A DNA stretch of 32,375 nt from Flavobacteriales bacterium (lineage in GTDB: Bacteria; Bacteroidota; Bacteroidia; Flavobacteriales; Flavobacteriaceae), in the NCBI GenBank assembly GCA_027061855.1, contig JAMOVT010000034.1, forward strand, positions 1 to 32,375. Direction: 5' to 3'. The stretch's first letter is position 1, and each line of letters opens with the position of its first letter. This document shows, one piece after another, positions 1,469 through 22,850 of the stretch. The notes beneath the pieces were generated by a model. It worked only from the letters and a program-made list of their open reading frames with translations. It was not told the origin of the DNA and did not search any database. The position numbers and the translations under genes are program-made.

Positions 1469-2071
1469 TCAAAATTGATTTTCTTTGAAAAAAAAATGAT
1501 CCGTATTAATTAATATAATTTGCGCATCTTTCACCTTGTTTGTTTTTAGATTGTTAATTACCAAATAGATAGCATCTTTTGAAATTTTCTCAAACATCCT
1601 TGTCCAAAATATAATTATTGTATATTTTTTTAGCTTATCATTAAATTGAAATATCTCATTGATTTTTTTGAATCTAATTGAGTTAAAATCCTCTGGGTTT
1701 TTAGCCGAGTGAGGCGGAAAGATGGAAAAGCGATTTTCATAATTCCAATCCAAGCCGGATAGTTGACCTTTTGCATAGCAATTAGCATGAAAAGAAACCA
1801 AAGAATCTCTATCAAAATATAGTATCTGAATAGGTTGACTTAAATCTTTTCTCTGTATAGAATCTTTTCCAAGTGCTATATAATTGTAAAATTCGTTATA
1901 GGTAGAAACTTTATCATTCACCGGGTAGCTTTGTTTAATTTCAGCAATGAATTTATCATATTCTTTTTGGTCAAATTCTTTAATTTCCTTATATCCATAC
2001 ACATTTTTCAATAATAATGAACAGGATGAGAAAAGAAAAAGCATTGTTAATAATATCGGATTTTTTTTCAA
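1469..2071 (-). CDS. Lipoprotein of unknown function (TTG start)
   Basis: The start codon is TTG at 2071. It gives KKNPILLTMLFLFSSC, a lipoprotein signal with its lipidated Cys near residue 17; the first ATG (M10) would leave almost no signal, so TTG is preferred. The 200-aa product has no recognised domain. Residues about 140-190 (YTIIIFWTRMFEKI, then a helix and ILINTD) resemble the core strand-helix-strand of a thioredoxin fold in which the CxxC is absent. The preceding gene product (2086-2784) shows a similar stretch, so the two may be paralogues with a degenerate thioredoxin fold. That relation is inference. The gap to the preceding gene is 14 bp, consistent with one operon. Confidence 0.68.
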   Translation of the reverse strand: MKKNPILLTMLFLFSSCSLLLKNVYGYKEIKEFDQKEYDKFIAEIKQSYPVNDKVSTYNEFYNYIALGKDSIQRKDLSQPIQILYFDRDSLVSFHANCYAKGQLSGLDWNYENRFSIFPPHSAKNPEDFNSIRFKKINEIFQFNDKLKKYTIIIFWTRMFEKISKDAIYLVINNLKTNKVKDAQIILINTDHFFFKENQF

Positions 2072-2085
2072 AGCTTTTATTTTAA

Positions 2086-2784
2086 TTATTTTAGTGGCAA
2101 CTTTCCAAATTTCATATCATATTTTTTATGACCTGTTTTTCGTATCAACATTTTCATTTTTTTCCCTTTTTTCAGCCCCCAATCCTCCCGCAAGTCATTA
2201 TTTATTTTGATTATAAAAACCTTCTTGTTGATTTTTTTTAACCAATCTTTAAACATTAAATAGTCTTCGAAAGTTATTTTTTTTGACTGTGCATAGATAC
2301 TCCAATTATACATGAAATAGTAATCTGCAGCCGGCAAATCCCTTTTTGTTATTTTTTTATTTTCAAGGCTGACAGTATGCGCCAATAAAGAGTCCAGCCT
2401 ATCAAAGTAATAATAATTTTGCCGGTCGATTGTGTCATTACAGTCTGATATTAAATGCTCATAATCTTCTGCAATTTGAGCCAATTGCACAGCCTCACAA
2501 GTTTCATTCCCATCATAACATTTTCGCTTGCCCTCCCGGTCATAAATAATGAGTTTTGATAAAAACATATTCCCCGTAATTTTTTTTATCTCATCTTTAG
2601 GCACTTTATCAAAGAGTAAATTTAAATAGGCGTCATCTAATTCCGAATTTTTGACAAAATTTTTTATGCTGGTTTTTGTTTCTACTTTTGGATTTTTAAA
2701 GCCTCCCATAAAGCGATAAACACTTATGCATGAGGTATTTATACTGAGAAATACAAAAATAATTAGAGAGCCTTTTTTAATCAT
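2086..2784 (-). CDS. Lipoprotein of unknown function
   Basis: The 232-aa product begins MIKKGSLIIFVFLSINTSC, a lipoprotein signal with the lipid Cys at residue 19. The mature protein is charged and has Cys residues around 90-115 (RKCYDGNETC, SDC). Residues about 165-210 (ADYYFMYNWSIYAQ, then a helix and VFIIKINNDLREDW) recall a TlpA or thioredoxin-like core with no CxxC. No family is recognised with confidence. The gene overlaps the end of the preceding thioredoxin-like gene (stop at 2777) by 8 bp, which indicates translational coupling. It may sit in the outer membrane facing the periplasm as a partner of that oxidoreductase; this is inference. Confidence 0.7.
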   Translation of the reverse strand: MIKKGSLIIFVFLSINTSCISVYRFMGGFKNPKVETKTSIKNFVKNSELDDAYLNLLFDKVPKDEIKKITGNMFLSKLIIYDREGKRKCYDGNETCEAVQLAQIAEDYEHLISDCNDTIDRQNYYYFDRLDSLLAHTVSLENKKITKRDLPAADYYFMYNWSIYAQSKKITFEDYLMFKDWLKKINKKVFIIKINNDLREDWGLKKGKKMKMLIRKTGHKKYDMKFGKLPLK

Positions 2785-3643
2785 TATCCATTTTTTCTTT
2801 TAAAAAGCCGGGAACTGAGTGCGAATTTCCAATTCCTATAATTTCGTTATTTTTAATAATCAGCGTAGTTGGATATCTATAAACATGTATGCTATCCAGG
2901 ATTTTTTCTGTACCTTTATAAAACAACACTTTATAAGGCCATTTTTTTACCAAAGCAAGGTTATCTTCCAGTTTTTCATTTCTAAAAGGCACATTGACAA
3001 TAAAAAAGTGTACATTATCCAAAGTTTTAATTTTATCATAAAAAGTACGATATTCATCAAAACCCAAATAACAATAACCACAACTACTTGTCCAGAAATC
3101 CAATATGTAATAATCGTCTTTACTATTTAAGTAAACCCGTTTATTATTTTCATCTATAAGTTGCAAATCCTTTATTTTGATAGTTGTGTCAATTTCCGGT
3201 TGGAAATTTCCATAATTTAATTTATGAAGCCACATTTGATATCCTTTATTTATTCCCATAAAACCTGAAACAAGCATTAATAAAAACACATACTTAAAAT
3301 ATCTAAGCGATGTAAGCAGTCCTAAAACAACTCCCAAAATAAAAGATAGAGAGCTGGGAGTTGCAATTTGATAAAATTTCCAATTGTTTACATGAAAAAC
3401 AAAAAATATCATGAAAAAATTAGGAAGCAGAAAAATCATATACCACAATAACTTATTTTTTTTCGCATATTTTTTCAATAGGACCATACCTAAAAAACCA
3501 TAAAACAAATACACAAATGCTTTGATATGATGCCCAAAAGGCTTACCCCCTAATCTTGCAATACCCACAGTAATTGCTAAAGAAAAAAGCAAGCCTACGA
3601 ATAATAATAACCTGTAAGAAACAATTTGAGTTTTTTTAATCAT
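2777..3643 (-). CDS. Membrane protein with C-terminal thioredoxin-like domain
   Basis: The first 140 residues of this 288-aa protein hold about four to five hydrophobic membrane segments (near 12-30, 42-56, 66-84, 98-112, 117-132). They are followed by a thioredoxin-fold domain with LDFWTSSCGYCYLG, giving a redox pair at C188 and C191. A cis-Pro candidate follows in HVYRYPTTLIIKNNEIIG. The architecture, a multi-helix membrane part carrying a periplasmic thiol-disulfide domain, fits TlpA-like or MauE/DoxX-associated redox proteins. It overlaps both neighbours (8 bp and 4 bp). Next to a protein with eight cysteines, a job in making or isomerising its disulfides is a reasonable inference. Confidence 0.78.
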   Translation of the reverse strand: MIKKTQIVSYRLLLFVGLLFSLAITVGIARLGGKPFGHHIKAFVYLFYGFLGMVLLKKYAKKNKLLWYMIFLLPNFFMIFFVFHVNNWKFYQIATPSSLSFILGVVLGLLTSLRYFKYVFLLMLVSGFMGINKGYQMWLHKLNYGNFQPEIDTTIKIKDLQLIDENNKRVYLNSKDDYYILDFWTSSCGYCYLGFDEYRTFYDKIKTLDNVHFFIVNVPFRNEKLEDNLALVKKWPYKVLFYKGTEKILDSIHVYRYPTTLIIKNNEIIGIGNSHSVPGFLKEKMDND

Positions 3644-4026
3644 TCTCTTTTTTTAACAAATCCCTTAATATCAACAATTGAGAATATTTCTTTTATATTG
3701 GATTTAATCACAATACTCCTTTCAAATCTTCCCTTGACTTCAGGTAGTATTTTCACTTCTATAAATGTATCTTGTTTAGGGTCAATAATTGAATCCTTAA
3801 TTTTAGCAATAGTGCAGCCACAATCAGATGACACGCTATATAATTTTAATGTATTGTCACCTATATTTTTAATATTGATCCTTCTAGTTATTTCTTTATT
3901 AATGAAAATTGTATCTAAATTCAATTCATTGGGAATTATATACATATTTATTTTTTCTTTCTTACTTTCAGAATTACAAGAAAGAAGAAAAACTAGTAAA
4001 ATACCTAAAATACAAATCTTTCTCAT
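3640..4026 (-). CDS. DUF1573 domain lipoprotein
   Basis: The 128-aa product starts MRKICILGILLVFLLSC, a lipoprotein signal with the lipid Cys at residue 17. The mature part is one Ig-like DUF1573 domain: the family's core SSDCGCTIAKI is present at about residues 66-76, followed by the usual I-x-P-K-x-x-x-x-I-x-V pattern. DUF1573 proteins are common surface or periplasmic proteins in Bacteroidota with no settled biochemical role. The gene lies 17 bp after the fulvocin-C-like gene and overlaps the next one by 4 bp (ATGA). This neighbourhood of a DUF1573 protein, a thioredoxin-like membrane protein and a Cys-rich peptide suggests one functional set. Confidence 0.85.
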   Translation of the reverse strand: MRKICILGILLVFLLSCNSESKKEKINMYIIPNELNLDTIFINKEITRRINIKNIGDNTLKLYSVSSDCGCTIAKIKDSIIDPKQDTFIEVKILPEVKGRFERSIVIKSNIKEIFSIVDIKGFVKKRE

Positions 4027-4043
4027 TTTAAAATATATTAAAT

Positions 4044-4679
4044 TTAGTAACTACACTTATCTCCATTACAGTCTTGGCTCCAAAATCCTCCACAGCCACC
4101 ATCTGTCATAACGCATTTTGTTCCAGAACATTCTCCATATTCTATTCCCACAGATATATAGCCAATAGAAGTAAGTCGCCCGCAAGTATACCGCGAGCCT
4201 CTAGCACAATTACATACCCTTTGTTGATTTTTTTTGTTTTGCATCAAATCACTATTTATTAAAAGAAAATCATCATTATTCAAATCAAAAAGTAAAGAAA
4301 AAAGAGTTTTAGAATCAAATAGTAGCTTACCTTCTTTAATTAACTCATCCATAATTACAGTGTTGGTGATTTTATGTTTTTTGGAAGATTTTATAAATAA
4401 ATTTTTATCAATTAAGTTTATTAAATTATCAATATATGTTAATTGATCTCTATTAAAATTTCCCATATATTTTAAATGTCTATATTTTGCTTTCCATAGA
4501 TTAGCCTTTTCTTCAGCAGATAAAGTTCTAAATGCATTACGTTGTTTTGAAAGATTTTTAATTGCGGTAATATTATTATATAAATCATCAGTGGAATCAA
4601 ACATTGCTTCTTTCTTACAGGATTGAAGAACCACGAGTCCTATTAAAAGTATAATTAAAGTTTTAAATATTTTTTTCAT
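4044..4679 (-). CDS. Fulvocin C-related Cys-rich lipoprotein (putative bacteriocin-like)
   Basis: The 211-aa protein has a lipoprotein signal (lipid Cys at residue 21), a helical charged middle of about 130 residues, and a C-terminal domain of about 57 residues with eight cysteines at 156, 158, 166, 184, 189, 196, 204 and 209. Their spacing, with V-C-N-C at the front and C-S-G-T-K-C, G-G-C-G and C-N-G near the end, resembles fulvocin C, a four-disulfide bacteriocin of Myxococcus fulvus, and the 'fulvocin C-related' proteins of Bacteroidota. It is the first gene of the leftward operon, 256 bp from a strong promoter. Bacteriocin activity is not shown by sequence; a cell-surface, contact-delivered or cleaved toxin, or simply a disulfide-rich surface protein, are all possible. 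Confidence 0.78.
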   Translation of the reverse strand: MKKIFKTLIILLIGLVVLQSCKKEAMFDSTDDLYNNITAIKNLSKQRNAFRTLSAEEKANLWKAKYRHLKYMGNFNRDQLTYIDNLINLIDKNLFIKSSKKHKITNTVIMDELIKEGKLLFDSKTLFSLLFDLNNDDFLLINSDLMQNKKNQQRVCNCARGSRYTCGRLTSIGYISVGIEYGECSGTKCVMTDGGCGGFWSQDCNGDKCSY

Positions 4680-4928
4680 AATTAATAATTTTTAAAGTTT
4701 AAAGTTTGTTTTATGATAAGTTACAGCTACCTATCAAAGCTTCCTCTCTTCATAAAAGAAGTTAAGCGCTCCAAACTTTATTTACTCTAAAAATAGTATC
4801 TTTGTCTTGACTAAACAAAGTTTGGTCTCTATGGGAAGGCTGCTCGAAGTTTTCCACGACGCCGGCAGCTTTCCCTCCTTTATATATTTTCTTCCCGTTA
4901 AGTCATATAATTTATTTTTTAAATTTTC
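4680..4928 (-). promoter_or_regulatory. Long structured 5' leader of cassette 1 operon
   Basis: Between the promoter at 4935-4965 and the first gene lie about 250 nt that can fold on the minus strand. The stem GGGAA/GCTGC pairs 4865-4875 with 4833-4843. Its counterpart in copy B reads GCTAC with GTAGC, so one pair has changed on both sides (G-C to A-T), which supports a real stem. A 9-bp stem CCAAACTTT/AAAGTTTGG joins 4817-4825 to 4771-4779 in both copies. A hairpin GATAGGT/ACTTATC near the start codon (about 4714-4735) keeps pairing through a G-U wobble. Whether it is a riboswitch-like control, a stabilising leader or the source of a small RNA is unknown. Confidence 0.55.
4797..4804 (+). promoter_or_regulatory. 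Candidate rightward -7 element
   Basis: TATCTTTG matches the Bacteroidota -7 consensus TAnnTTTG and is kept in copy B (9313-9320). No TTG is found 17-23 bp upstream, so it is a weak call. If active, it would make an RNA antisense to the leftward leader that runs towards the 36-codon ORF. Just downstream, GACTAAAC/GTTTGGTC could form an 8-bp hairpin on this strand. Confidence 0.3.
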
Positions 4929-4934
4929 TGTCAG

Positions 4935-4965
4935 CAAATATAATACCCCCCCGGCAACATGCAAA
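4935..4965 (-). promoter_or_regulatory. Bacteroidota promoter with G7 spacer, cassette 1
   Basis: On the minus strand this reads TTTG, a 19-bp spacer, then TATATTTG, a full match to the Bacteroidota housekeeping promoter. The spacer contains seven consecutive G (4946-4952 as C on the plus strand). Copy B has eight G and a 20-bp spacer. The promoter faces the fulvocin-C-like operon and lies about 256 bp ahead of its start codon. Confidence 0.8.
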
Positions 4966-5021
4966 CAAAAACGCAATATTTATTTAATTATATTGCATTT
5001 TTATCAATTTATTAAAGTTTT

Positions 5022-5132
5022 ATGAAAAATAGAAAAAAATTAAATTCCCTTTTAATAGGGGAAGCCATTGTGTTTATTGGGGAAGCAATAAAACAGGGAA
5101 GTTTTACAATTATATTAATCTCATTATTTTAA
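5022..5132 (+). CDS. 36-aa small protein candidate, copy A
   Basis: An ATG-to-TAA frame of 36 codons: a basic N-terminus MKNRKKLNSLL, then I-GEAIVFIGEAIKQ with a doubled GEAI, and a hydrophobic tail GSFTIILISLF. It is preceded by AT-rich DNA (TTAAAGTTTT) as is usual for this phylum. Copy B encodes the same peptide with one change (Ile12 to Arg). With one base difference in 111, this is the best conserved stretch of the repeat. It points away from the leftward operon and towards the rsmI end. A small basic and hydrophobic peptide of this type could be a membrane-active or toxin-like peptide, but the family is unknown and it may not be translated. Confidence 0.42.
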   Translation: MKNRKKLNSLLIGEAIVFIGEAIKQGSFTIILISLF

Positions 5133-5203
5133 GAAAACTGAGAAAAAATTAGAGCAATCTCAATAAATTATCAAGCAAATAAAAGCAAAAATTTTCGATT
5201 TTA

Positions 5204-5337
5204 TTATTTTTTCTGTGCACCGCTCAATACAACCACAAAATCTCCTTTGGGCTTTTTCTGTTCGAAATAGTCCAGGAGTTCTTGAAGGCTTCCACGGTGC
5301 ATTTCTTAATAAAGCTTGGAGATTCCCAGAAAAATGG
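5204..5337 (-). pseudogene. rsmI 3'-end remnant, copy A
   Basis: On the minus strand the sequence encodes HRGSLQELLDYFEQKKPKG, then D-F-V-V-V-L-S-G-A-Q-K-K and a stop. The intact RsmI ends almost identically (E-F-V-I-V instead of D-F-V-V-V). Upstream, an in-frame TAA at 5306-5308 replaces a Glu codon, similarity fades, and it ends near 5337. It cannot encode a methyltransferase, since the catalytic N-terminal region is absent. It marks the outer edge of the direct repeat and lies 12 bp from the end of the receptor gene at 5351. Confidence 0.9.
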
Positions 5338-5350
5338 AGGCAATAATAAG

Positions 5351-8011
5351 CTAAAAACGGTATTCCAATAACAAAACAACCAATCTGGGATTCAATCTAA
5401 AACTATATAAAGAAGTGCCTATATCGAAAACCGAATAAAGCTCAAAACTATCTTCATTCAAAAGATTTCTAAGTTGCAAACTCATTTGCATTTTTTTCGG
5501 TATTAATGAATAGTCCACTTCCAAATCGATAAAATGAAATTTATTGTCATCGCTTAATTTTTTTAAATAATATGATTCCCATTGGATTTCCGCCTTCCAT
5601 TTTGAATGGAAATTTACAAAGAAATCCGAATAGATTAAAAAATCATCACTCGTATATTTGGCATTATTCAGTTCGGACTCCATATAATTCCATTTCACTC
5701 CTGCATAATAATTAACCGGAAAGGAATAATTGGACTTGATTTCCATACCCAAAGAATAATTATTATAGCGAACATCTCGCATTCCGAGCATATTTACTTT
5801 ATTTTGAAAGCTCATTTGCGAATGACTAAGTTTAAATTTTAAATTATTTTTTAAAGATTTAAAATAATAGTCCAGTTCGGAGTTGATACTGAGAAAATTT
5901 TTATTATGAATAAGCATTTCTTTGGAAACGGAATAATCATCATAATAAAAAATGTCTTGAGAAAAATAATCAAAAGAACGGGTGAAGAGAAAAGTGGTAT
6001 TCATAAAAAAAAGATCACTCCAATTTCCCAGCTGATAATTAAGCAAAAGAGAAGATTGAGCCAATTCATCTGATTTTCCATACTTTTTTTGAACGGAAGT
6101 ATAATTCTTAAACATAAAATGCTCCGGCAAATTTTGCAGAGGCATTGTCTTGATTTTATAGGAATATTTGACAAACATCCGGTTATTATTGTTTATTTTC
6201 CAATTAACCCCTAAACCCGGAGTAAAATAAAAAGGAGAAAATTGCCTTTTATTTTCTTCCTGAGTATTATTCTTATAAAAAGTATATACATTTAATATGG
6301 GAGAAAATTTTACTGATTTCCATGGAAATAGATAAGAAATAGTCAAATAAATTTTTTTATCAATATATCTAATATCATTTATAAAATCATCCGGACGAGT
6401 TATATTTTGAGCTTCCTCAAAAATGTCCAAATAGGATTGAAAAATATAATCACGCATTTTTATTCCACTGGAAATTTGAAGTGTTTTGTCATTTATTTTC
6501 TTCAAATAAACCCCTTGTATTCCCCCAAAATAAAGTTCTCCCTCGGTTTTTTGCCTCATTTTGTCTGCGGAGTTTACTTGCGGCAAAATCTCCTCATACA
6601 AAAAGCGATTAAAACTATAAGTTTGTGGAATATTTTGATATCCCAGGTTGCCCGAAAAAAGAAAAACACTTTGCTTATTTAGCTTATGAGTATATAAAAA
6701 ATTTGAATTCCATAATTTATTACTTGTCAGCAAACTTTCATTTAAAGGGTTTTGATTATATAATAAGGAAGCCCGGTCTTTGCTGTCTTTATAAGAAAAA
6801 TCCGTTTGAAAATAAAGCTGCTGATGGGATGATATTTCCGATAACCAATCGAAATGAGCACTTATATTATAAGCTTTTAAAAAAGTAGCGTTTTGTTCCG
6901 TATAAGAAATATTTTCATCTCCTAAATAAATATTCTGATTGAAACTACGGAAATAATCGGAAGTATTTTTTTCGGCCAAAACATAGGAATGTATTTTTGA
7001 TTGATCGTTGAATTTATAAATCCAATTGAAAAAAGCCAAATGAGATTCCAAATCCACATAACGGTTTTGTTTAAATTTCAGTTGGAAAGGTGTCATTTGA
7101 ACGATGGGATTTAAAACCTCATCATTCTCTATAGAATATTGTTCCTCGTCTTTTGAGGAAAACAAAATGCTGAAAACATTCCCCGAGAGATCTCTACCGA
7201 TATTATTCCCCCCGGTATATAAATAAACCTTTGATTTCTTTTTGAAGTTCATCAGATTCAATTTATAATCATAGGATTTATTATTTCCCGCTCCTGCTTC
7301 TATATTTCCAAACCAAATATTTTTCGCTTTTTTATCCAAAATTAAATTAAGAGCCACTTTATCAGATTCTTCAATATTCTTTAATAGTTTATTGGAGGAA
7401 TAATGCTTTAAAATCTCAACCTTTTTAATAGTATAGGAAGGCATATTTTTTGAAATCAACTGATAATTTTTATCAAACATATCATCTCCTTCTATTAATA
7501 ATTTATCAACATTTTGATTTCCTACACTAATTATTCCGTCATCATCTACATTAATATTAGGCAATTTTTTTAATAGGTCTTCCACATTTTTTTCTTCTCC
7601 TTGAACAAAATGTTTCACACTATAAATAATAGTATCTTTTTTCACAACTACCGGCAGATCAATATTAATGATTACATCATCTAACTGATATTCTTTTTCC
7701 TCTAATAAAATATCCAAATATTGGTTCGGTTGATTTTTTATTTCATTCAAAAAAATTTTCTTCGTTTTATATCCGAGTGAGGCAACAAACAAAAAAAGAG
7801 AATCCGACAAGGGAGCTTGGATAGAATAGTTTCCCAAAGAATCGGTATAACTATAAGCGATAATTAGATTCTTTTTTTGCAAACTTACCGAAGCATTTTC
7901 AATGGCTTGTTTCTTAAAATTTAATATTTTACCTTTAATCAATAGGCCTTGTTGCGCAGAAATACGAAAGCTAAAAAAAATTATTATACAGAAATTAATT
8001 ATCGATTTCAA
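5351..8011 (-). CDS. TonB-dependent-receptor-like outer-membrane barrel with CarboxypepD_reg domain
   Basis: The 886-aa protein starts at a TTG (8011) that overlaps the end of the GLPGLI gene by 17 bp. The start gives KSIINFCIIIFFSFRISAQ, a good signal peptide, and no ATG lies nearby. Residues about 24-105 form a carboxypeptidase-regulatory-like domain (GKILNFKKQAIENASVSL, then DSLGNYSI). Residues about 115-225 are plug-like (VEDLLKKLPNINVDDDG, then LLIEGDD). The remainder is a large beta-barrel ending in L-E-Y-R-F. This layout fits the Bacteroidota outer-membrane barrel family often found beside GLPGLI proteins. No TonB box is visible. It may transport or display the exported protein of the same operon; that is inference. 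Confidence 0.85.
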   Translation of the reverse strand: MKSIINFCIIIFFSFRISAQQGLLIKGKILNFKKQAIENASVSLQKKNLIIAYSYTDSLGNYSIQAPLSDSLFLFVASLGYKTKKIFLNEIKNQPNQYLDILLEEKEYQLDDVIINIDLPVVVKKDTIIYSVKHFVQGEEKNVEDLLKKLPNINVDDDGIISVGNQNVDKLLIEGDDMFDKNYQLISKNMPSYTIKKVEILKHYSSNKLLKNIEESDKVALNLILDKKAKNIWFGNIEAGAGNNKSYDYKLNLMNFKKKSKVYLYTGGNNIGRDLSGNVFSILFSSKDEEQYSIENDEVLNPIVQMTPFQLKFKQNRYVDLESHLAFFNWIYKFNDQSKIHSYVLAEKNTSDYFRSFNQNIYLGDENISYTEQNATFLKAYNISAHFDWLSEISSHQQLYFQTDFSYKDSKDRASLLYNQNPLNESLLTSNKLWNSNFLYTHKLNKQSVFLFSGNLGYQNIPQTYSFNRFLYEEILPQVNSADKMRQKTEGELYFGGIQGVYLKKINDKTLQISSGIKMRDYIFQSYLDIFEEAQNITRPDDFINDIRYIDKKIYLTISYLFPWKSVKFSPILNVYTFYKNNTQEENKRQFSPFYFTPGLGVNWKINNNNRMFVKYSYKIKTMPLQNLPEHFMFKNYTSVQKKYGKSDELAQSSLLLNYQLGNWSDLFFMNTTFLFTRSFDYFSQDIFYYDDYSVSKEMLIHNKNFLSINSELDYYFKSLKNNLKFKLSHSQMSFQNKVNMLGMRDVRYNNYSLGMEIKSNYSFPVNYYAGVKWNYMESELNNAKYTSDDFLIYSDFFVNFHSKWKAEIQWESYYLKKLSDDNKFHFIDLEVDYSLIPKKMQMSLQLRNLLNEDSFELYSVFDIGTSLYSFRLNPRLVVLLLEYRF

Positions 8012-8771
8012 TACCTTGCTCTTTATTTTTAATTTTTAAATTGGAAACTTTGGCGCCTGAACCCAATCTTAGAAAGGCAGCTTTTAGTTTCTCTCCCAAT
8101 TCTTTTGTATATTGTTTTTTGATAGCTAAAAACTCTTTGCGATTAACAGGGTCTTCCGGAATTTCTATAGAGATAACTTCCCCCTTATAGGACGAAATCT
8201 GTTTAGCTTTAATAATGACTTCTTTGGTATCATCAAAAATAATCAATATCAAACCCGGAAGCCTTCCGAATTTCATGGGGCCAAAAAAACCGGGCAGATC
8301 TTTTGCAAACCAAGCTGTATAATCACGCCCTCTAAAAGAAGCTGTTGCTTTTTGTACAATATAATCCCCTACCTTTTTGGTTTGGGCTTGTATTTTCCAT
8401 TGTAGGGAAGGAATCTTCTCTGTAACCATGATACTCTTTTTTTGTAACGGATTCAGAGCATTGAAATATAGACTATTATTTTTTTTATCAATAAAGATAT
8501 AATGTTGTAAAGTGTCTTTAACCACTATCTGATAATCGAGGTTTATATTCCCAAATTCATCTTTCGATTTCTTTTCATATTCATTCGATTTATCAAGATG
8601 AGCAGGAGAATAGAAAAAATAGGAGAAATTATCGTTAAATAAAAGTTGTGCTTTATAAATTTGATCATAAAGCATCATTTCATATGTAATTGATATTTCA
8701 GGCCTAAAATTAGTTTGAGATATAGAAAGAAAAAAAGTAAAAAAAAATAATATAGCCAGTTTTGTTTTCAT
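7995..8771 (-). CDS. GLPGLI family protein
   Basis: The 258-aa protein has a signal peptide (MKTKLAILFFFTFFLSISQT). It carries the family hallmark at residues 168-176, F-G-R-L-P-G-L-I-L, preceded by the typical A-W-F-A-K-D-L-P-G-F-F-G-P. GLPGLI proteins are periplasmic or outer-membrane-associated in Bacteroidota and are usually paired with a carboxypeptidase-regulatory-domain barrel protein, as here (17-bp overlap with 5351-8011). Their biochemical role is not established. The gene follows the exported small-protein gene, separated from it by a 50-bp gap that contains a strong hairpin. Confidence 0.88.
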   Translation of the reverse strand: MKTKLAILFFFTFFLSISQTNFRPEISITYEMMLYDQIYKAQLLFNDNFSYFFYSPAHLDKSNEYEKKSKDEFGNINLDYQIVVKDTLQHYIFIDKKNNSLYFNALNPLQKKSIMVTEKIPSLQWKIQAQTKKVGDYIVQKATASFRGRDYTAWFAKDLPGFFGPMKFGRLPGLILIIFDDTKEVIIKAKQISSYKGEVISIEIPEDPVNRKEFLAIKKQYTKELGEKLKAAFLRLGSGAKVSNLKIKNKEQGIEIDN

Positions 8772-8787
8772 CTGTATGATTTTTAAA

Positions 8788-8813
8788 GGCTATATGCAAA
8801 ATTGCATATAGCC
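8788..8813 (-). terminator. Intra-operon hairpin after the peptide gene
   Basis: GGCTATATGCA and TGCATATAGCC form a perfect 11-bp inverted repeat around a 4-base loop. On the minus strand it lies 8 bp after the stop of the small exported-protein gene and is followed by the interrupted run TTTAAAAAT. It could partly end transcription or protect the 3' end of the upstream message, so that the small protein is made in excess over the GLPGLI and receptor proteins. The weak T-run makes a full terminator less likely. Confidence 0.65.
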
Positions 8814-8821
8814 AATTAATT

Positions 8822-9196
8822 TTATGTAACCGAGTCTTTTAGCATTTGGATTAATTCTTTAGTTGCTTTTTTTGCATTTTCACAACTAGTAGTGATTTCT
8901 CCACTAACAGTAACAGTTACATTCCCCACTTTTACTGAGACCGAGGCTGTTATTGTAACGGTACAGGTATCATCTACTATATAATCTTTAATTTTATTTT
9001 GAAATTCAAATTTTGAAAAATCATTTAATTCATTAAAGTTATATACTAAATTAAGATTCTCTATGTCATTATTTGTAAAGGCATACTGTATTGTAGCCTC
9101 TTCAAATTCTTTAACATTATTATTAAATAAAGAATTTGTGTTTGCAAAAGCACCTATGTTAAGGAGCATTAGAGTTAAAATTATAACTTTTTTCAT
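8822..9196 (-). CDS. Small exported two-cysteine protein, unknown
   Basis: The 124-aa product starts MKKVIILTLMLLNIGAFA, a Sec signal peptide cleaved near residue 18. An acidic, Asn-rich middle follows. Then comes a stretch between C78 and C105 with strongly alternating Val, Thr and Ser (TVTITASVSVKVGNVTVTV), which looks like a beta-hairpin closed by one disulfide, and a short C-terminal helix (NAKKATKELIQMLKDSV). No family is recognised. As first gene of cassette 2, it takes the same place behind the same repeat as the fulvocin-C-like gene of cassette 1. It may be an exported effector or peptide precursor handled by the GLPGLI and receptor proteins; this is inference from position. Confidence 0.7.
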   Translation of the reverse strand: MKKVIILTLMLLNIGAFANTNSLFNNNVKEFEEATIQYAFTNNDIENLNLVYNFNELNDFSKFEFQNKIKDYIVDDTCTVTITASVSVKVGNVTVTVSGEITTSCENAKKATKELIQMLKDSVT

Positions 9197-9442
9197 AATT
9201 ATTTTTTTTAAAGTTTAAAGTTTGTTTTATGATAAGTTACAGCCACTTATCAAAGCTTCATCACTTCCTAAAAGAAGTTAAGCGCTCCAAACTTTATTTA
9301 CTCTAAAAACATTATCTTTGTCTTGACTAAACAAAGTTTGGTCTCTATGGGAAGGCTACTCGAAGTTTTCCAGACCAGCAGTAGCTTTCCCTCCTTTATA
9401 TTTTCTTCCCGTTAAATCATATAGTTTATTTTTTAAATTTTC
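9197..9442 (-). promoter_or_regulatory. Long structured 5' leader of cassette 2 operon
   Basis: About 245 nt separate the promoter from the start codon at 9196. The main stem pairs 9380-9391 with 9349-9360 (GGGAA, bulge, GCTACT with AGTAGC, bulge, TTCCC); relative to copy A it carries a paired change. The 9-bp stem between 9333-9341 and 9287-9295 is unchanged. The hairpin GATAAGT/ACTTATC near 9231-9251 is perfect here. No open frame of useful length is shared by both leaders, because a 2-base length difference near 9400 shifts the frame. This favours an RNA function over a leader peptide. Confidence 0.55.
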
Positions 9443-9448
9443 TGTCGA

Positions 9449-9480
9449 CAAAAATAACACCCCCCCCGGCAATATCCAAA
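9449..9480 (-). promoter_or_regulatory. Bacteroidota promoter with G8 spacer, cassette 2
   Basis: On the minus strand: TTTG, a 20-bp spacer, TATTTTTG. The spacer contains eight G (9460-9467 as C on the plus strand), one more than copy A. It drives the operon of the small exported protein, the GLPGLI protein and the receptor. Confidence 0.8.
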
Positions 9481-9536
9481 CAAAAACGCAATATTTTTTG
9501 CGTTATATTGCATTTTTATCAGTTTTTTAAAGTTTT

Positions 9537-9647
9537 ATGAAAAATAGAAAAAAATTAAATTCCCTTTTAAGAGGGGAAGCCATTGTGTTTATTGGGGAAG
9601 CAATAAAACAGGGAAGTTTTACAATTATATTAATCTCATTATTTTAA
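9537..9647 (+). CDS. 36-aa small protein candidate, copy B
   Basis: The frame matches the one at 5022-5132: basic start MKNRKKLNSLL, then R-GEAIVFIGEAIKQ and hydrophobic tail GSFTIILISLF. Only residue 12 differs (Arg here, Ile in copy A). It converges on rsmI, ending 72 bp from the rsmI stop. A weak hairpin TGAGA/TCTCA follows in both copies (about 9654-9677 here) and might end either transcript. Candidate -7 element at 9313-9320 (TATCTTTG), about 220 bp upstream. Confidence 0.42.
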   Translation: MKNRKKLNSLLRGEAIVFIGEAIKQGSFTIILISLF

Positions 9648-9718
9648 GAAAAATGAGAAAAAATTAGAGCAATCTCAAAAATTCATCAAGTAAATAAAAG
9701 CAAAAATTTTCGATTTTA

Positions 9719-10399
9719 TTATTTTTTCTGTGCACCGCTCAATACAATCACAAATTCGCCTTTGGGCTTTTTTTGTTCGAAATAGTCCAGAAGTTCTTGA
9801 AGGCTTCCCCGGTGGGTTTCTTCATAGAGCTTGGAGATTTCACGGGAAACGGAGGCACGGCGGTCGGCACCGAAATAGGATATAAAATCTTTGAGGGTTT
9901 TGAGCAATTTATGAGGAGATTCATAAAAAATCATGGTGCGTTTCTCGTCTTGCAAATTTTCCAAAAAAGTTTTTCTTCCTTTTTTTACGGGAAGAAAACC
10001 AAGGAATACAAAAGATTCCGCCGGCAATCCGGAATTGACCAATGCCGGTACAAAAGCCGTAGCACCCGGTAATGTTTCTACAGGAATTTCTTTCTCTATG
10101 GCTTTATGCACGATGAGATAGCCGGGATCGGAAATGGCAGGCGTACCTGCATCCGAGATCAAGGCCATTACGGTTCCGTTTTCCATTTGTTCAACCAATT
10201 GATCCACTGTTTTATGCTCGTTAAATTTATGATAGGAACGTTGGGGCGTGTCTATTTCAAAATGTTTTAATAATTTTCCCGAAGTACGCGTATCTTCTGC
10301 CAGAATCAAATCGACATCTTTGAGCACTTCAACAGCCCGGAAAGTCATATCCTTTAAATTTCCAATGGGAGTCGGGACGATAAATAATTTTCCTTTCAT
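9719..10399 (-). CDS. rsmI: 16S rRNA (cytidine1402-2'-O)-methyltransferase RsmI
   Basis: The 226-aa protein is a full-length SAM-dependent tetrapyrrole-methylase-fold enzyme that 2'-O-methylates C1402 in the 16S rRNA decoding centre. Visible hallmarks are VPTPIGNLKDMTFRA near residue 8, LAEDTRTSGKLL near 33, SDAGTPAISDPGY near 83 and P-G-A-T-A near 109. Its start overlaps the stop of the upstream gene by one base (TGATG), so the two are translationally coupled. The last 45 codons lie inside direct repeat B. Stubs of the same 3' end occur at 5204-5337 and 1-27, which makes the end of this gene the anchor of the cassette row. Confidence 0.96.
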   Translation of the reverse strand: MKGKLFIVPTPIGNLKDMTFRAVEVLKDVDLILAEDTRTSGKLLKHFEIDTPQRSYHKFNEHKTVDQLVEQMENGTVMALISDAGTPAISDPGYLIVHKAIEKEIPVETLPGATAFVPALVNSGLPAESFVFLGFLPVKKGRKTFLENLQDEKRTMIFYESPHKLLKTLKDFISYFGADRRASVSREISKLYEETHRGSLQELLDYFEQKKPKGEFVIVLSGAQKK

Positions 10400-11049
10400 C
10401 AGTTAAATTTTAATTCAAGCAATTGAATCAAACGGAATTCATATTCATCCTTATCCTCCCAATGATTAAAACGGGGTTTTACCTCATTATTTAAATAGAC
10501 CAAGGCTTCTTCATAAGAGTCAATTTCATTCAATTTTTCAATTACTTTGTTATAAGTCGTACTGTCATTATTAAACAAATGCCGTATAAAGGCAATTTTA
10601 TCATTTAAACCGATATTCATTTTTTTTCCTTCTCCGTTTGCAGCTTTCACCGCTACTTTTTTTTCTGCGTTTTCTTTCGGCACAAATTTCATATTGGAAA
10701 CCGATTTATAAATTCCTTTCGAAGAAAAATTACCTTTTTTTTCCGGTTTTTTGTACGTATATTTATCAGCAGGCTTTCCCTCCTTTATATTTTTATTATA
10801 ACCTTCTGAATTACCGGAAACTTTATTGGTTTTATCCGTTTCTTCGGGATAATTTGCCAATATTTCTTCCAGTTCTTCGGCATCCATCAATTTGGATAAT
10901 TGATAGACCGCATTTGTTTTTTCATAAAGTTTCCGGGAAGATTTATATATATCCTTGATGTCTTTTTTATGAATATCTTTGATAATTTCTTGAGCCAAAA
11001 GGGTTAACTCGGCTTTGAGAATATTAATTAGTTCGGTTTTATCTTTCAT
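10399..11049 (-). CDS. Conserved hypothetical protein upstream of rsmI
   Basis: The start chosen is the ATG at 11049 (MKDKTELINILKAELTLLAQ). The frame stays open to 11175, but that extension lies in the AT-rich gap shared with the divergent tdk gene. The 216-aa protein has a helical N-terminal part (about 1-75), a Lys-rich low-complexity linker (about 80-140) and a compact helical C-terminal region (about 145-216: NIGLNDKIAFIRHLFNN, then YEFRLIQLLELKF). It has no signal or membrane segment and is presumably cytoplasmic. I recognise the C-terminal region only as a type common in Bacteroidota genomes, with no known function. Confidence 0.8.
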   Translation of the reverse strand: MKDKTELINILKAELTLLAQEIIKDIHKKDIKDIYKSSRKLYEKTNAVYQLSKLMDAEELEEILANYPEETDKTNKVSGNSEGYNKNIKEGKPADKYTYKKPEKKGNFSSKGIYKSVSNMKFVPKENAEKKVAVKAANGEGKKMNIGLNDKIAFIRHLFNNDSTTYNKVIEKLNEIDSYEEALVYLNNEVKPRFNHWEDKDEYEFRLIQLLELKFN

Positions 11050-11182
11050 ATCCTGAGGTTTTAGAAGTAAGGAAAAGCAAATTGTTAATAAAAATTTGGT
11101 CTTTGCTTCAAAAGCAAGAGATAAAAATTTTAATTTCGTTTTAACAAAAATAATGAAATTAATCGACAAATACACTTGATCT

Positions 11183-11773
11183 ATGTTTTTAGAAATACCT
11201 GTAAATCACAAAGAAAATCTCGGGTGGATAGAAGTAATCACAGGGAGTATGTTTTCCGGAAAAACCGAAGAACTGATACGCCGGCTGAAAAGAGCTAAAT
11301 TTGCCAAGCAAAAAGTGGAAATTTTCAAACCCAAAGTAGACAACAGGTATCACGATACTAATATTGTTTCTCACGACAAAAATGAGATACATTCCACCGC
11401 CGTAGACAATGCATTGGAAATCCTCATGCTTGCAGAAGGAGTGGATGTAGTGGGAATCGATGAAGCACAATTTTTTGACGAAGCCATTGTCGATGTATGT
11501 AACGATCTGGCTAATAAAGGAATACGGGTCATTGTTGCCGGTTTGGATATGGATTTTATGGGAAAACCTTTCGGACCGATGCCCTACCTGATGGCCATTG
11601 CCGAATATGTGACAAAAGTTCATGCGGTTTGCACCAGAACAGGCAACTTGGCTCATTACAGTTATCGTCTTTCGGATGATGACAAGTTGGTTTTGCTCGG
11701 AGAAACCCAAGATTACGAACCTCTTAGTCGTGCCGCTTACTACAAAGCCATGCAGGAAAGAAAGAATAAATAA
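11183..11773 (+). CDS. tdk: Thymidine kinase (type II)
   Basis: The 196-aa enzyme phosphorylates thymidine to dTMP in the salvage pathway. The P-loop GSMFSGKT lies at residues 21-28, the D-E-A-Q-F catalytic segment follows in GIDEAQFF, and A-G-L-D-M-D-F is present. In many type II kinases four Cys or His bind zinc in the lasso domain; here the first pair is C-T-R-T and the second is S-R-A-A-Y, so at most one ligand remains. I believe this is usual for Bacteroidota enzymes, so it does not argue against activity. Only 4 bp separate its stop from the alr start, indicating co-transcription. Confidence 0.95.
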
Positions 11774-11777
11774 AAAA

Positions 11778-12878
11778 ATGCACAGGGAAACACTTTTGGA
11801 AATCGACAAAGCCCGGTTGGAGCATAATCTTGATGTTTTCCGCAGTCTTATAAAGCCTGAAACCCAAATTTTGGCAAATCTCAAAGGAAACGCTTACGGT
11901 TTGGGAGCTTCTCTAATAGGGCGAACTTTGGAAAAATTGGGGATTGATTACTTTTCCGTGGCTTTTATCAATGAAGGTATGGATTTAAGAAAAGCCGGTA
12001 TTAAATCAAATATATTGGTTTTTAATCCCTCCTTATTTCATTTTAAAGAATTAATAGAGTATGAGTTAGAGCCGGAAGTAAGCTCGATCTATTACCTTAG
12101 AAAACTTATCGAATTTCTAAAAATCAAGAAGATAAAAAAATATCCGGTACATATTAAATTGGATACCGGTATGCATCGGGCCGGAATAGAAGAAAAAGAA
12201 TTGGATAGTTTGATTGACCTAATTCACCATTCGGAAGAAATCAAAGTGAAAAGCATATTTTCTCATTTGGCAGCGGCTGAGGATCCTGATAAAGATGATT
12301 TTACAAAACAGCAATTCGAATTATTTGACCGGTTTACATCAAACATAAAACAAAAAACCGGAGAAGATTTTTTCCGGCATATATTAAACACCGCCGGGGT
12401 TTTTCGTTTTACGGAGAAACAATATGAAATGATCCGGCCGGGTTTGGGAATTTTCGGTTACAATTTGATAGAAAAACCTCATAAAGAACTGCTTCCCATT
12501 GCACAATTAAAAACAAATATCAATCAGATCAAAACTTTGCAAAAAGGTGAAAGCGCAGGCTATAATAACAGGTTTACAGCCATCAAAGACAATACAACAA
12601 TAGCTCTGTTACCTTTGGGCTATGCAGACGGAATAGACCGGCGATTGGGGAATGGCAATTGGAAGGTTCACATCAATGGGAAAGAAGCTCCCATTATCGG
12701 TGCGGTTAGCATGGACACAATGAGTATAGATATAAGCGGAATAAAATGCAATCCGGGAGATGAAGTAATTGTGTTTGACAATAAAGACGACATTTACAAA
12801 ATGGCCGCTCTTTTGGAAAGCATTCCCTATGAAATGACTACAAGATTAACAAACAGAGTGGAAAGGAGATTAAAATAA
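11778..12878 (+). CDS. alr: Alanine racemase
   Basis: The start is the ATG at 11778 (MHRETLLEIDKARLEHNL), 4 bp after tdk; the open frame extends upstream only as an overlap with tdk. The 366-aa enzyme has the usual two-domain form: a PLP barrel with the Schiff-base Lys in ILANLKGNAYGLG (about residue 39), M-I-R-P-G-L-G-I-F-G-Y for cofactor binding, the catalytic Tyr in SAGYNNRF, and the C-terminal G-A-V-S-M-D-T-M-S-I-D segment. It makes D-alanine for peptidoglycan. Expression probably depends on the tdk promoter, and a strong terminator follows 17 bp after the stop. Confidence 0.95.
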   Translation: MHRETLLEIDKARLEHNLDVFRSLIKPETQILANLKGNAYGLGASLIGRTLEKLGIDYFSVAFINEGMDLRKAGIKSNILVFNPSLFHFKELIEYELEPEVSSIYYLRKLIEFLKIKKIKKYPVHIKLDTGMHRAGIEEKELDSLIDLIHHSEEIKVKSIFSHLAAAEDPDKDDFTKQQFELFDRFTSNIKQKTGEDFFRHILNTAGVFRFTEKQYEMIRPGLGIFGYNLIEKPHKELLPIAQLKTNINQIKTLQKGESAGYNNRFTAIKDNTTIALLPLGYADGIDRRLGNGNWKVHINGKEAPIIGAVSMDTMSIDISGIKCNPGDEVIVFDNKDDIYKMAALLESIPYEMTTRLTNRVERRLK

Positions 12879-12894
12879 GTATTTGCAAATAAAA

Positions 12895-12924
12895 TAAAAA
12901 AACGGCTCATTGAGCCGTTTTTAG
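12895..12924. terminator. Bidirectional terminator between alr and peroxiredoxin
   Basis: AAACGGCTCA and TGAGCCGTTT form a 10-bp stem with a one-base centre, or a short loop once the inner pairs open. It is flanked by an A-run and a T-run, so it can end both the rightward alr transcript and the leftward peroxiredoxin transcript. Confidence 0.9.
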
Positions 12925-12951
12925 TTTGCGTGTGTAATAAAGAATCTTAAT

Positions 12952-13611
12952 TTATGATTCTTTTAATTCTTTATGACAGAACCACCAATCGAAACAACCG
13001 GGTTTTCCTTTTCTTTCCATTGCCGTTTGAATATCGGTGGCAGGAGGAATGATTACATGGTCTCCGATTAATTCGTTATTGGGCCAATTTTCAGGAGTAG
13101 CTACTCCATATTTATCAGAAATTTGAAGCGCTTTTACAGCTCTCAATACTTCATCAACGCTACGACCTATTTCTTGCGGATAGTAAATCATCAAACGCAT
13201 TTTTCCTTGAGGATCCACTACAAATACCGCACGAACCGTATTGCTTTGTGATTTTCCGGGATGAATCATACCTAATTTTTTGGAAACTCCTTCGGCACTA
13301 TCGGCAATGATAGGGAAAGGAATTTGAACATTCAGATTTTCTTCAATCCATTCATCCCATTTGATATGAGAAAAAACTTGATCTACAGAAAGACCGATTA
13401 ATTCAACACCTAATTTTTTAAATTCTTCGGCTTTATTAGCAAAAGCTACAAATTCAGTAGTACAAACCGGAGTAAAATCTGCCGGATGACTAAATAATAT
13501 AAACCATTTTCCTGCATAATCATCAGGTAAAACTTTAGGGCCATGAGTTGTTTGAACTTTTACCTTGGGAAACTCTTCTCCCAACAATGGCATTCTTGTT
13601 ATTTCTTCCAT
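12952..13611 (-). CDS. Peroxiredoxin, Prx6 subfamily
   Basis: The 219-aa enzyme reduces peroxides using a peroxidatic cysteine at residue 50, in D-F-T-P-V-C-T-T-E. Two more cysteines lie near the C-terminus (C206 and C212 in [11 protein letters not shown]). This pattern matches archaeal-type Prx6 proteins such as that of Aeropyrum pernix, where C50, C207 and C213 take part in catalysis. The gene stands alone, has its own -7 element (13641-13648), and ends towards the shared terminator at 12895-12924. No OxyR-like operator can be identified by eye. Confidence 0.94.
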
Positions 13612-13640
13612 AATTGTATATTTTTTAGATTAATTTGATG

Positions 13641-13648
13641 CAAATTTA
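13641..13648 (-). promoter_or_regulatory. Candidate -7 element for peroxiredoxin
   Basis: On the minus strand TAAATTTG matches TAnnTTTG, 29 bp ahead of the start codon, giving a short leader. No clear TTG is present at the expected upstream distance. Confidence 0.4.
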
Positions 13649-13786
13649 AAGCCTATTGAAAGCTATTCCTTATATTTTTAATATTTTTAATTAATAAGCC
13701 GATAAAATAATTTTATAATTCAATTCAAAGTGATTATTGTTACTTATTATTTTGATATATTCTTAAAATTACAAAATATTTGCCAA

Positions 13787-13814
13787 ACAAAAAAACCGGA
13801 CAATTTTTGTCCGG
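13787..13814 (-). terminator. Intrinsic terminator of serS
   Basis: CCGGACAA and TTGTCCGG form an 8-bp stem around TTT, followed on the minus strand by a run of seven T. It lies 28 bp after the serS stop. Confidence 0.92.
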
Positions 13815-13841
13815 CTCTGTAAATCTGTCAGTTTTTCCCTT

Positions 13842-15113
13842 TTAATCTATTTTATCAAAGCCCGCATAGGAATGCAAAACTTCGGGAAGTTTAATACCTC
13901 CTTCAATTTGATTGTTTTCCAAAAGAGCTGCTACCACACGAGGAAGAGCTAAAGAACTTCCGTTTAAAGTATGTGCCAAACGTTTTTTACCGTCTTTATC
14001 TTTAAATCGTAATTTTAATCGATTGGCTTGAAAATCTTCAAAATTGGAAACCGAACTTACTTCAAGCCAGCGTTTTTGAGCAGCGGAATAGACTTCAAAA
14101 TCATAGGTCAATGCGGAAGTAAAGCCCAGATCCCCTCCACAAAGCCGCACGATACGAAAGGGTAATCCCAGTTCTATCAAAATTTGTTTAACGTGTTCTA
14201 CCATCTCTTCTAATGCTTCATAAGAGCGATCAGGGTGCTCCAAGCGTACAATTTCTACCTTATCAAATTGATGCAAACGGTTCAGTCCGCGCACATGAGC
14301 CCCATAAGAACCTGCTTCACGACGAAAACATGGTGTATAAGCAGTATTTTTAATAGGAAAATCTTTTTCACTCAACATTACATCACGGTATAAGTTGGTT
14401 ACCGGAACCTCGGCTGTCGGGATTAAATAGAGATTATCACGTTCAATGACATACATTTGTCCTTCTTTATCGGGCAATTGACCGGTTCCATATCCGGATG
14501 CTTCATTGATTAAATGAGGAACTTGCATTTCTCTGTACCCGGCCTCTTCGTTTTTATCGAGAAAATAATTGATCAAAGCCCGTTGTAATTTAGCCCCTTT
14601 CCCTTTGTAAACAGGAAATCCGGCTCCGGTGATTTTATTTCCCAAATCAAAATCAATAATGTCATATTTTTTGGCCAAATCCCAATGGGGCAAAGCATTG
14701 TCATTCAATTCCAAAATATCACCATAGGTAAAGACCACCTCATTATCCGATTCGTCTTTTCCAAAAGGGACCAAGTCATTGGGAATATTGGGTAACTGAT
14801 ATAAAATTTCCTGTAGCTCTTGTTTCACTCTTTCCAGCGTCTCGGTCAATTCCTTGATTTGCTCTTTGAGTTCTATTGTTTTTAATTTGAGTACTTCGGC
14901 TTTTTTTGGTTCTCCCGATTTATAAAGTTTTCCTATTTCCTTGGAAAGTTTATTCATCTCGGCCAATAAAGAATCGTTATCCGCTTGGGTTTTTCTCCGT
15001 AGGGAATCCAATTCAATGGCTTTTTCCAATAAAGGAGCTGCATCGAAATTTCGCTTTTTCATCGCTTGGATGATTTCGTCTTTTCTATCGCGGATAACTT
15101 GAATTTGTAGCAT
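13842..15113 (-). CDS. serS: Seryl-tRNA synthetase
   Basis: The 423-aa class II synthetase charges tRNA-Ser. Residues about 30-100 form the long antiparallel coiled-coil arm that grips the tRNA variable arm. The catalytic core shows the T-A-E-V-P loop at 233-237, motif 2 F-R-R-E-A-G at 263-268 with HQFDKVE after it, and motif 3 NGSSLALPRVVAALLENNQ at 384-402 with Arg392. Length is normal for the family. It is a single-gene unit with a terminator at 13787-13814. Confidence 0.97.
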   Translation of the reverse strand: MLQIQVIRDRKDEIIQAMKKRNFDAAPLLEKAIELDSLRRKTQADNDSLLAEMNKLSKEIGKLYKSGEPKKAEVLKLKTIELKEQIKELTETLERVKQELQEILYQLPNIPNDLVPFGKDESDNEVVFTYGDILELNDNALPHWDLAKKYDIIDFDLGNKITGAGFPVYKGKGAKLQRALINYFLDKNEEAGYREMQVPHLINEASGYGTGQLPDKEGQMYVIERDNLYLIPTAEVPVTNLYRDVMLSEKDFPIKNTAYTPCFRREAGSYGAHVRGLNRLHQFDKVEIVRLEHPDRSYEALEEMVEHVKQILIELGLPFRIVRLCGGDLGFTSALTYDFEVYSAAQKRWLEVSSVSNFEDFQANRLKLRFKDKDGKKRLAHTLNGSSLALPRVVAALLENNQIEGGIKLPEVLHSYAGFDKID

Positions 15114-15223
15114 AATAATTTCTAATTAAATTAATACTACAAAATTACTTTTAAAATTTGCAATACACAAATTTAAAGCCAGAATAGTCCTTTATACAAA
15201 GTATATAAAAAAGAAAGGAAAAT

Positions 15224-16276: not shown

Positions 16277-16296
16277 TACTGCAAAGGTAGGAAGAT

Positions 16297-17610: not shown

Positions 17611-17623
17611 TATTTCATCGTAT

Positions 17624-17655
17624 TAAAAAAGCCGGCATATTACTATAACCGGCTT
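17624..17655 (-). terminator. Intrinsic terminator after DUF4270 gene
   Basis: On the minus strand AAGCCGG and CCGGCTT flank a 12- to 13-base loop and are followed by a T-run. It separates the DUF4270 gene from the serine hydrolase gene downstream. Confidence 0.88.
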
Positions 17656-17679
17656 AGATAAAAAATGTTACAAATTTAT

Positions 17680-19233: not shown

Positions 19234-19243
19234 AAAAAGGGGG

Positions 19244-20068: not shown

Positions 20069-20092
20069 AAAAATGAATTTGGTTCTAAAACA

Positions 20093-20121
20093 CAAAGATA
20101 CGAAATTTTGCCGTATTTTTG
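20093..20121. promoter_or_regulatory. Divergent candidate -7 elements, GT5-like gene and panC
   Basis: In the 91-bp gap, minus-strand TATCTTTG (20093-20100) faces the GT5-like gene and plus-strand TATTTTTG (20114-20121) faces panC. Both match TAnnTTTG; neither has a well-placed TTG upstream. Confidence 0.42.
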
Positions 20122-20159
20122 AAGCCGCAAAGGCTCTTTTGCGCGTTAAATTTTTCATA

Positions 20160-21008: not shown

Positions 21009-21012
21009 AGCC

Positions 21013-21699: not shown

Positions 21700-21792
21700 A
21701 TTTCTTTTAATACCACTCAAGTTACTATTATTACAGTTATTTAACATTTTTTTTGTAAATTGCCACAATTACAATTTATAAAATTTATTATT

Positions 21793-22392: not shown

Positions 22393-22420
22393 ATTTATCC
22401 TTTTACAAAATATACTTACA

Positions 22421-22448
22421 GCCGGATTTAATAAAATCCGGCTTTTTT
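22421..22448 (+). terminator. Intrinsic terminator after DUF937 gene
   Basis: GCCGGATTT and AAATCCGGC form a 9-bp stem with a 4-base loop, followed by TTTTTT on the plus strand. Confidence 0.93.
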
Positions 22449-22467
22449 ATTGATATACAGCAAGTTA

Positions 22468-22475: not shown

Positions 22476-22513
22476 GCATAATGATTGAATAATATTAATT
22501 AAAATCAACTGCC

Positions 22514-22814: not shown

Positions 22815-22850
22815 ATATATTTAGGCACCAAATAACTAAATAATAAAACT

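Follow-up and report, generated by a model that had tools for sequence, protein, structure and literature searches.

Frequent pairing of fulvocin C-related lipoprotein genes with membrane thioredoxin genes

A lipoprotein and a membrane thioredoxin encoded together

The stretch of DNA analysed here (hereafter the window; 32,375 nt, contig JAMOVT010000034.1 of the Flavobacteriales bacterium assembly GCA_027061855.1) encodes on its minus strand a lipoprotein related to the bacteriocin fulvocin C, and, two genes downstream, a membrane protein with a C-terminal thioredoxin-like domain. Among 19 loci encoding members of the same lipoprotein family, 15 have, downstream on the same strand, a gene for a membrane protein with a CxxC thioredoxin-type domain at its C-terminus; this pairing suggests a unit dedicated to the production of a fulvocin-like peptide. 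Unlike the fulvocin resemblance, the redox pairing appears to be new, and a frequent neighbour with a thiol-disulfide active site offers a concrete hypothesis for how members of the fulvocin-related family mature, along with two genes that could be expressed as a unit. The three genes in question are the following:

4044..4679, minus strand: fulvocin C-related lipoprotein, 211 aa, with a lipoprotein signal ending in LQSC (C21), a helical middle and an eight-cysteine C-terminal domain at about residues 154-211
3640..4026, minus strand: DUF1573 lipoprotein, 128 aa, with a signal ending in LLSC and a CGC motif (PF07610, E 6.7e-14)
2777..3643, minus strand: membrane protein with a C-terminal thioredoxin-like domain, 288 aa, with C188-G-Y-C191 and P258 as the likely cis-proline

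All three had been described in the original prediction, and re-reading the open reading frames (ORFs) of the window found them in place on the minus strand. The 211-aa precursor has a visible lipobox at C21 and its eight C-terminal cysteines were confirmed at positions 156-209. The lipoprotein gene is separated by 17 nt from the DUF1573 gene, which in turn overlaps the membrane-thioredoxin gene by 4 nt, so that the direct coupling of the DUF1573 gene (with its PF07610 match) and the CGYC gene (C188 and C191 in place) held as predicted.

Occurrence of the family and gene pairing across 19 loci

The 211-aa lipoprotein belongs, as judged by its profile match, to the NCBIfam family NF033852, "bacteriocin fulvocin C-related protein" (89.2 bits against a cut-off of 35, E 4.5e-25), and its resemblance to fulvocin C is not new, since that family already carries the name. 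The record as returned mentions no redox partner. When ten homologues were rescanned with NF033852, nine scored above the cut-off, and the tenth, from locus L027, reached 34.8 against 35 bits. At E 0.001 the family was present at order level in 5 of 296 genomes, at class level in 9 of 395 and at phylum level in 4 of 395, as well as in two families (3/12 and 2/36 genomes) and two orders (5/108 and 1/16 genomes); these samples overlap, and those of the order, class and phylum all include the window's own genome. In total, 19 genomes were found to carry the family, and in the group searches the matches of G169, G667 and G807 fell short of the curated cut-off.

Used as the query, the window lipoprotein itself matched one of 60 relatives, namely its own genome, with no match in two genomes of the same genus (90 and 95% complete), and it found no relative in the scanned genome contigs and no match in the plasmid and phage collections. 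A four-row alignment of close lipoproteins recovered three loci from the genome contigs, at the same places as those of G534, G518 and G586, and gave no match in viral contigs.

Downstream same-strand neighbours were read in all 19 loci, and this survey supports the dedicated redox gene of the original prediction, as homologues are indeed found with a redox gene in 15 of the 19 neighbourhoods. The partner gene directly follows the family gene in 14 loci, and in the window it comes after the DUF1573 gene; the genes either overlap or lie less than 100 nt apart. A further locus, L020, shows the membrane part in a gene cut by the contig end. The loci without a partner are L017, which has a DUF1573 gene instead, L028, and L029, in which the family gene is broken and the adjoining gene is unclassified. 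The similarity matrices of lipoproteins and partners were correlated over 13 loci (r 0.49, L027 and L051 left out for their missing parts), and 18 of 5000 permutations gave a value as high.

When the partner profile was run over the 395 class genomes, with six candidates scored per genome, the eight best matches, all near full length, came from eight of the nine genomes bearing NF033852; the ninth is G030, the source of L017.

Two side observations come from these neighbourhoods. Nothing follows on the strand of the family gene in L028, and a gene for a small CGPC protein lies just before it on the opposite strand; two such small CGPC-motif proteins are encoded in that locus (8075-8605 and 5763-6296, minus strand, opposite to the fulvocin-related gene). 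In L018 a gene for a MauG-type peroxidase lies upstream.

The eight-cysteine domain

Fulvocin C of Myxococcus fulvus is reportedly a bacteriocin of 45 aa, sequenced by Tsai and Hirsch in 1981, and we take it to be a disulfide-bonded peptide with eight cysteines. The cysteines of the window lipoprotein lie at positions 156, 158, 166, 184, 189, 196, 204 and 209, and all eight are present in each of the 18 readable domain sequences, the 19th (L029) being broken. Compared with the sequence of fulvocin C, the eight cysteines follow in the same order, with the CxC start, the GCG motif and a terminal NG in common, and the stretch CSTASD[YW]CP is common to fulvocin C and the L024 homologue. The GCG motif, which reads GCGGFW in the window, is a feature of the alignment made here, the family record not being its source.

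Against a profile built from the 18 cysteine domains, fulvocin C scored 28.2 bits. None of 1000 shuffles with the cysteines held fixed reached this score (best 16.2), nor did any of 1000 full shuffles (best 10.0), and the similarity of the domains to fulvocin C is therefore judged to exceed cysteine spacing, provided that the 1981 sequence as used here is right. The claim of the original prediction that the cysteines are spaced as in fulvocin C held in part: order and homology stand, whereas the window protein is odd in having 17 residues between the third and fourth cysteines, 12 more than the five seen in close relatives and in fulvocin C, and the spacing of the last cysteines differs as well. 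Further differences from fulvocin C are that the domain here belongs to a lipid-anchored precursor of 211 aa that has a helical middle, and that antibacterial activity is putative.

Outside the cysteine domain, a lipobox could be recognised by eye in 15 of the 18 readable sequences. Across an alignment of 11 homologues C21, W62 and GCG are invariant, and the helical middle contains some conserved residues (W62, K65, Q79 and F121). The homologue of L027, only 105 aa long, consists of a signal peptide and the cysteine domain and has no helical middle, which suggests that the cysteine domain is the working part of the protein. The original prediction had raised contact delivery, or release by proteolysis near residue 150, as ideas; homologues share no conserved cleavage motif before the first CxC that could be recognised by eye. 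An export signal of the form C-x-K-(D/E)2-x is described for Capnocytophaga in the available text of PMC5080379; by eye it is present in full in L024 only, and the window sequence, CKKEA, has the K at +3 with a single acidic residue.

AlphaFold2 with a four-sequence input modelled helices in the precursor, with a predicted local distance difference test score (pLDDT) of 71-83 for mature residues 31-80 (51-100 of the window protein) and of 54-69 in the flanking blocks. Foldseek with this precursor model returned no PDB match at E 0.001.

As a separate observation, the two ORFs flanking the thioredoxin gene of L027 (6793-7188 and 8072-8389) share much of a signal peptide and a GKSPDCNGFNFCNV stretch, and only one of them has the eight-cysteine domain.

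The membrane thioredoxin partner

As a single sequence, the thioredoxin-like domain of the window partner matched below Pfam cut-offs. A family profile of the partner, on the other hand, reached ResA-type enzymes in the PDB with E of about 4e-21, and matched 246 PDB sequences at E 0.001, the best 60 of which include, by name, ResA, StoA, TlpA and DsbE/CcmG. The only residues invariant in all 15 aligned partners are C188, C191 and P258. With the CxxC and the candidate cis-proline in a thioredoxin-type domain, features held in common with the ResA/TlpA membrane thioredoxins, the partner is by sequence a thioredoxin-like thiol-disulfide oxidoreductase. It differs from those enzymes in its linkage to a fulvocin-like gene and in five long N-terminal helices, which in the model (mean pLDDT 59.8) precede strands and helices arranged in a thioredoxin-like order.

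The first cysteine of the window partner is C188, which leaves its membrane half free of cysteine, and no cysteine position in that half is invariant across the 15 homologues. A membrane electron carrier of the DsbB, VKOR or DsbD type was therefore set aside, as a membrane part without conserved cysteines is unlikely to pass electrons itself.

Partner-like genes were also found away from the family. Near-full-length matches (E 2.6e-38 to 2.5e-35) occur in four class genomes without the family (G549, G631, G357 and G376), and in G296, G385 and G540 the match runs from position 42-69 onward; the loci of G296 and G385 (L089 and L090), when read, showed the same make-up as the other partner-like genes, and G540 may do so too. 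Six of these loci were read (L085-L090), and none has a cysteine-rich gene next to the partner; a 67-aa ORF with six cysteines in L085 was discounted as it lies inside the partner in another frame. In L087 (4793-4985; from G357), however, only the last 14 codons of a fulvocin-like gene are left, directly before a partner gene that is intact, and 87 alignment columns ahead of the gene are still recognisable against L053 from the same genus. The proteins of L085 and L086 share 38% similarity with each other and at most 26% with any paired partner, and may form a separate group.

The DUF1573 lipoprotein

The DUF1573 match of the window protein (52.1 bits against a gathering score of 26.1) has counterparts in Pfam scans of only two other loci, L017 and L054, so that the domain is present in 3 of the 19. 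The original prediction had treated DUF1573 as a regular partner, and this part was dropped. A search with the window protein over the ORFs of the fetched loci gave no further copy, and the gene next to the family gene in L029, which looks DUF1573-like by eye, was not called by Pfam and was not counted. The motif is CGC in the window and in L054 and CSC in L017. Selenoproteins with DUF1573 are listed with the motif UGC in the available text of two reviews (PMC9312934 and PMC13188914), and, on account of the CGC motif and these selenoprotein members, a thiol-active role beside the thioredoxin is plausible.

Proposed function and alternatives

We favour, with middling confidence, the reading that the operon makes a lipid-anchored, exported precursor of a four-disulfide and probably antibacterial peptide together with its own thiol-disulfide enzyme. 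It builds on four observations, namely the family, the conserved cysteines, the gene pairing and the catalytic motif. The precursor would be exported by the Sec route and lipidated at C21, where the lipobox is visible. In the periplasm, the membrane thioredoxin would then oxidise or isomerise the eight cysteines to four disulfides, a step that we infer from the frequent gene pairing, and in the window operon the CGC-bearing DUF1573 lipoprotein would perhaps help with this step. The membrane part of the partner may serve as an anchor, as a docking site for the precursor or as an element of self-protection. The cysteine domain, either held at the cell surface or freed by proteolysis just before the first CxC, would finally act on competing bacteria, as homology to fulvocin C suggests.

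Two precedents bear on this scheme. According to the available text of PMC6391423, BdbB, encoded in the sublancin operon, forms the two disulfides of sublancin, and so offers a precedent for pairing a bacteriocin with a dedicated oxidoreductase. The operon (with BdbA and BdbB) resembles that of the window in combining a cysteine-containing bacteriocin with thiol-disulfide oxidoreductase genes, and differs in the peptide, a Gram-positive host, the exporter/protease SunT, an S-linked sugar, a separate immunity gene (sunI) and having no lipid anchor. The SitA toxins of myxobacteria are modular lipoproteins acting between related cells, as described in the accessible parts of PMC8546572, and are likewise a precedent for lipoprotein toxins; they have nuclease C-termini and are delivered by outer-membrane exchange, whereas the window protein shares the lipid anchor only and has another C-terminal domain. 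In the literature as far as it could be searched, with subscription journals mostly outside its coverage, nothing was found on how fulvocin C or its relatives are made, and nothing to the point on bacteriocins with thiol-disulfide oxidoreductases or on TlpA in Bacteroidetes; PMC8708641 cites the original fulvocin C work and PMC12333140 gives the family name as a keyword only, in the text available for each.

Several points weigh against the favoured reading. In L017 and L028 the family gene is intact and is followed by no membrane-thioredoxin gene on its own strand. Partner-like genes occur in at least 6 of 386 class genomes without the family, and the contrast with eight of nine is tilted towards pairing because the profile contained those eight proteins and only six candidates were scored per genome. 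The middle residues of CxxC vary widely (GY, GG, VP, GV, AP, TP, KP, AY, GN, SI, SN and GA), hence no single redox role is evident, and the group of ResA, StoA, TlpA and DsbE/CcmG includes enzymes that act as reductants. The comparison depends on the fulvocin C sequence used here being correct, and the AlphaFold2 model of the cysteine domain reached a pLDDT of only 25-34 with its four input sequences. NCBIfam and Pfam scans, lastly, recognised no exporter, protease or immunity gene in the operon of the window.

This last result also fits an alternative that we consider less probable than the favoured reading, and still deserving of weight, in which the protein is no weapon at all but a surface or periplasmic lipoprotein (in adhesion, sensing or the envelope) whose disulfide-rich domain depends on a dedicated folding enzyme; the fulvocin name would then reflect common descent of the domain only. 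The full-length precursor with its conserved middle residues, and the lipobox in most readable sequences, would agree with such a role. Patchy occurrence of the family, in contrast, fits an accessory trait better than a housekeeping one, as does the deleted copy beside a retained partner in L087, and L027 has no middle domain.

The loss of the peptide gene in L087 next to an intact partner bears on a further, unlikely alternative, that the membrane thioredoxin is a self-protection (immunity) protein, with or without a role in maturation. Orphan immunity genes occur in other bacteriocin families, and the partner-like genes of L085, L086 and L088-L090, which have no cysteine-rich neighbour, would be consistent with this. 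A single decayed locus is nonetheless weak evidence, L085 and L086 may represent a separate group, and the invariant residues of the 15 partners are limited to CxxC and P258, which points to an enzyme. Distinctly improbable is a reductive or metal-related role, with the thioredoxin keeping the cysteines reduced and the eight-cysteine domain binding metal, or with the lipoprotein acting as a redox relay: the largely ResA/TlpA-like profile matches and the thiol motif of DUF1573 would suit it, whereas the similarity of the cysteine domain to fulvocin C, a disulfide-bonded peptide, argues against it.

A repeated leader, rsmI and a second cassette

The operon starts within a direct repeat of about 690 bp (4654-5342 and 9168-9857; 90.8% identity over 693 columns), which takes in the 3' end of rsmI, the complete leader and the first codons of the first genes of two cassettes, these codons being 76% identical. 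The intact rsmI gene lies at 9719-10399 (TIGR00096, E 5.1e-76). The remaining features of the region are as follows:

4680..5203, minus strand: upstream leader, in common with the one at 9197-9718, holding a promoter-like site (4935-4965) and a GC-rich hairpin (about 4833-4875)
5204..5342, minus strand: 3'-end fragment of rsmI, part of the direct repeat
5351-9196, behind the repeated leader: second cassette, encoding a 124-aa protein, a GLPGLI protein and an 886-aa protein
2086..2784, minus strand: fourth operon gene, encoding a 232-aa putative lipoprotein of no family, with an 8-nt overlap with the partner gene
1469..2071, minus strand: fifth gene, encoding a 200-aa putative lipoprotein of no family, with a TTG start in the ORF list and a 14-nt gap after the fourth gene

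The fourth and fifth genes gave no match of weight in family scans, and no ORF of the other fetched family loci is homologous to them. PHROG and PADLOC also returned no match of weight, and scans of the window with Rfam at gathering scores and for tRNAs were empty. In the second cassette, the 124-aa protein contains two cysteines and, as judged by eye, a signal peptide, the GLPGLI family protein matches TIGR01200 (E 2.3e-34), and the 886-aa protein contains CarbopepD_reg_2.

Both leaders carry a Bacteroidetes-type promoter motif at matching places on the minus strand, 4935-4965 and 9449-9480; the window contains five such motifs against a shuffle mean of 2.4, and 8 of 100 shuffles reach five, so that the number is not clearly above chance. 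Both also have the GC-rich hairpin on the minus strand, at 4833-4875 and at the corresponding position in 9340-9400, with one compensatory G-C to A-U change, and the first copy folded with its surroundings gives a z of -3.49. The hairpins had no Rfam match at gathering scores, and the leader had no match in the plasmid and phage collections. Comparison of 45 rsmI codons revealed five synonymous and eight non-synonymous differences, one of the latter a stop, and the last 31 codons contain four synonymous versus two conservative differences.

Through the repeat, two cassettes unrelated to each other follow copies of one leader, in tandem, at the rsmI 3' end, and their GC content is 27-29% compared to 36% for 9719-24400. 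In our reading, foreign cassettes were captured one after the other through recombination at the end of rsmI, and the shared leader with the rsmI fragment may be a site where such cassettes are collected or swapped. A broader proposal, which we regard as doubtful, is that these genes represent a new class of Bacteroidota weapon, in which surface lipoproteins would carry a fulvocin-type four-disulfide warhead that a dedicated multi-helix membrane thioredoxin both matures and protects the producer against; as AT-rich cassettes, the genes would be exchanged at the rsmI 3' end, where they share a promoter and a structured leader.

Elsewhere in the window, a 2033-aa ORF with a lipoprotein-like start (25122-31223) had no NCBIfam match at E 0.001, and 22851-24341 encodes a 496-aa subtilisin-family protease whose best NCBIfam match is mycosin TIGR03921, below the cut-off of that family.

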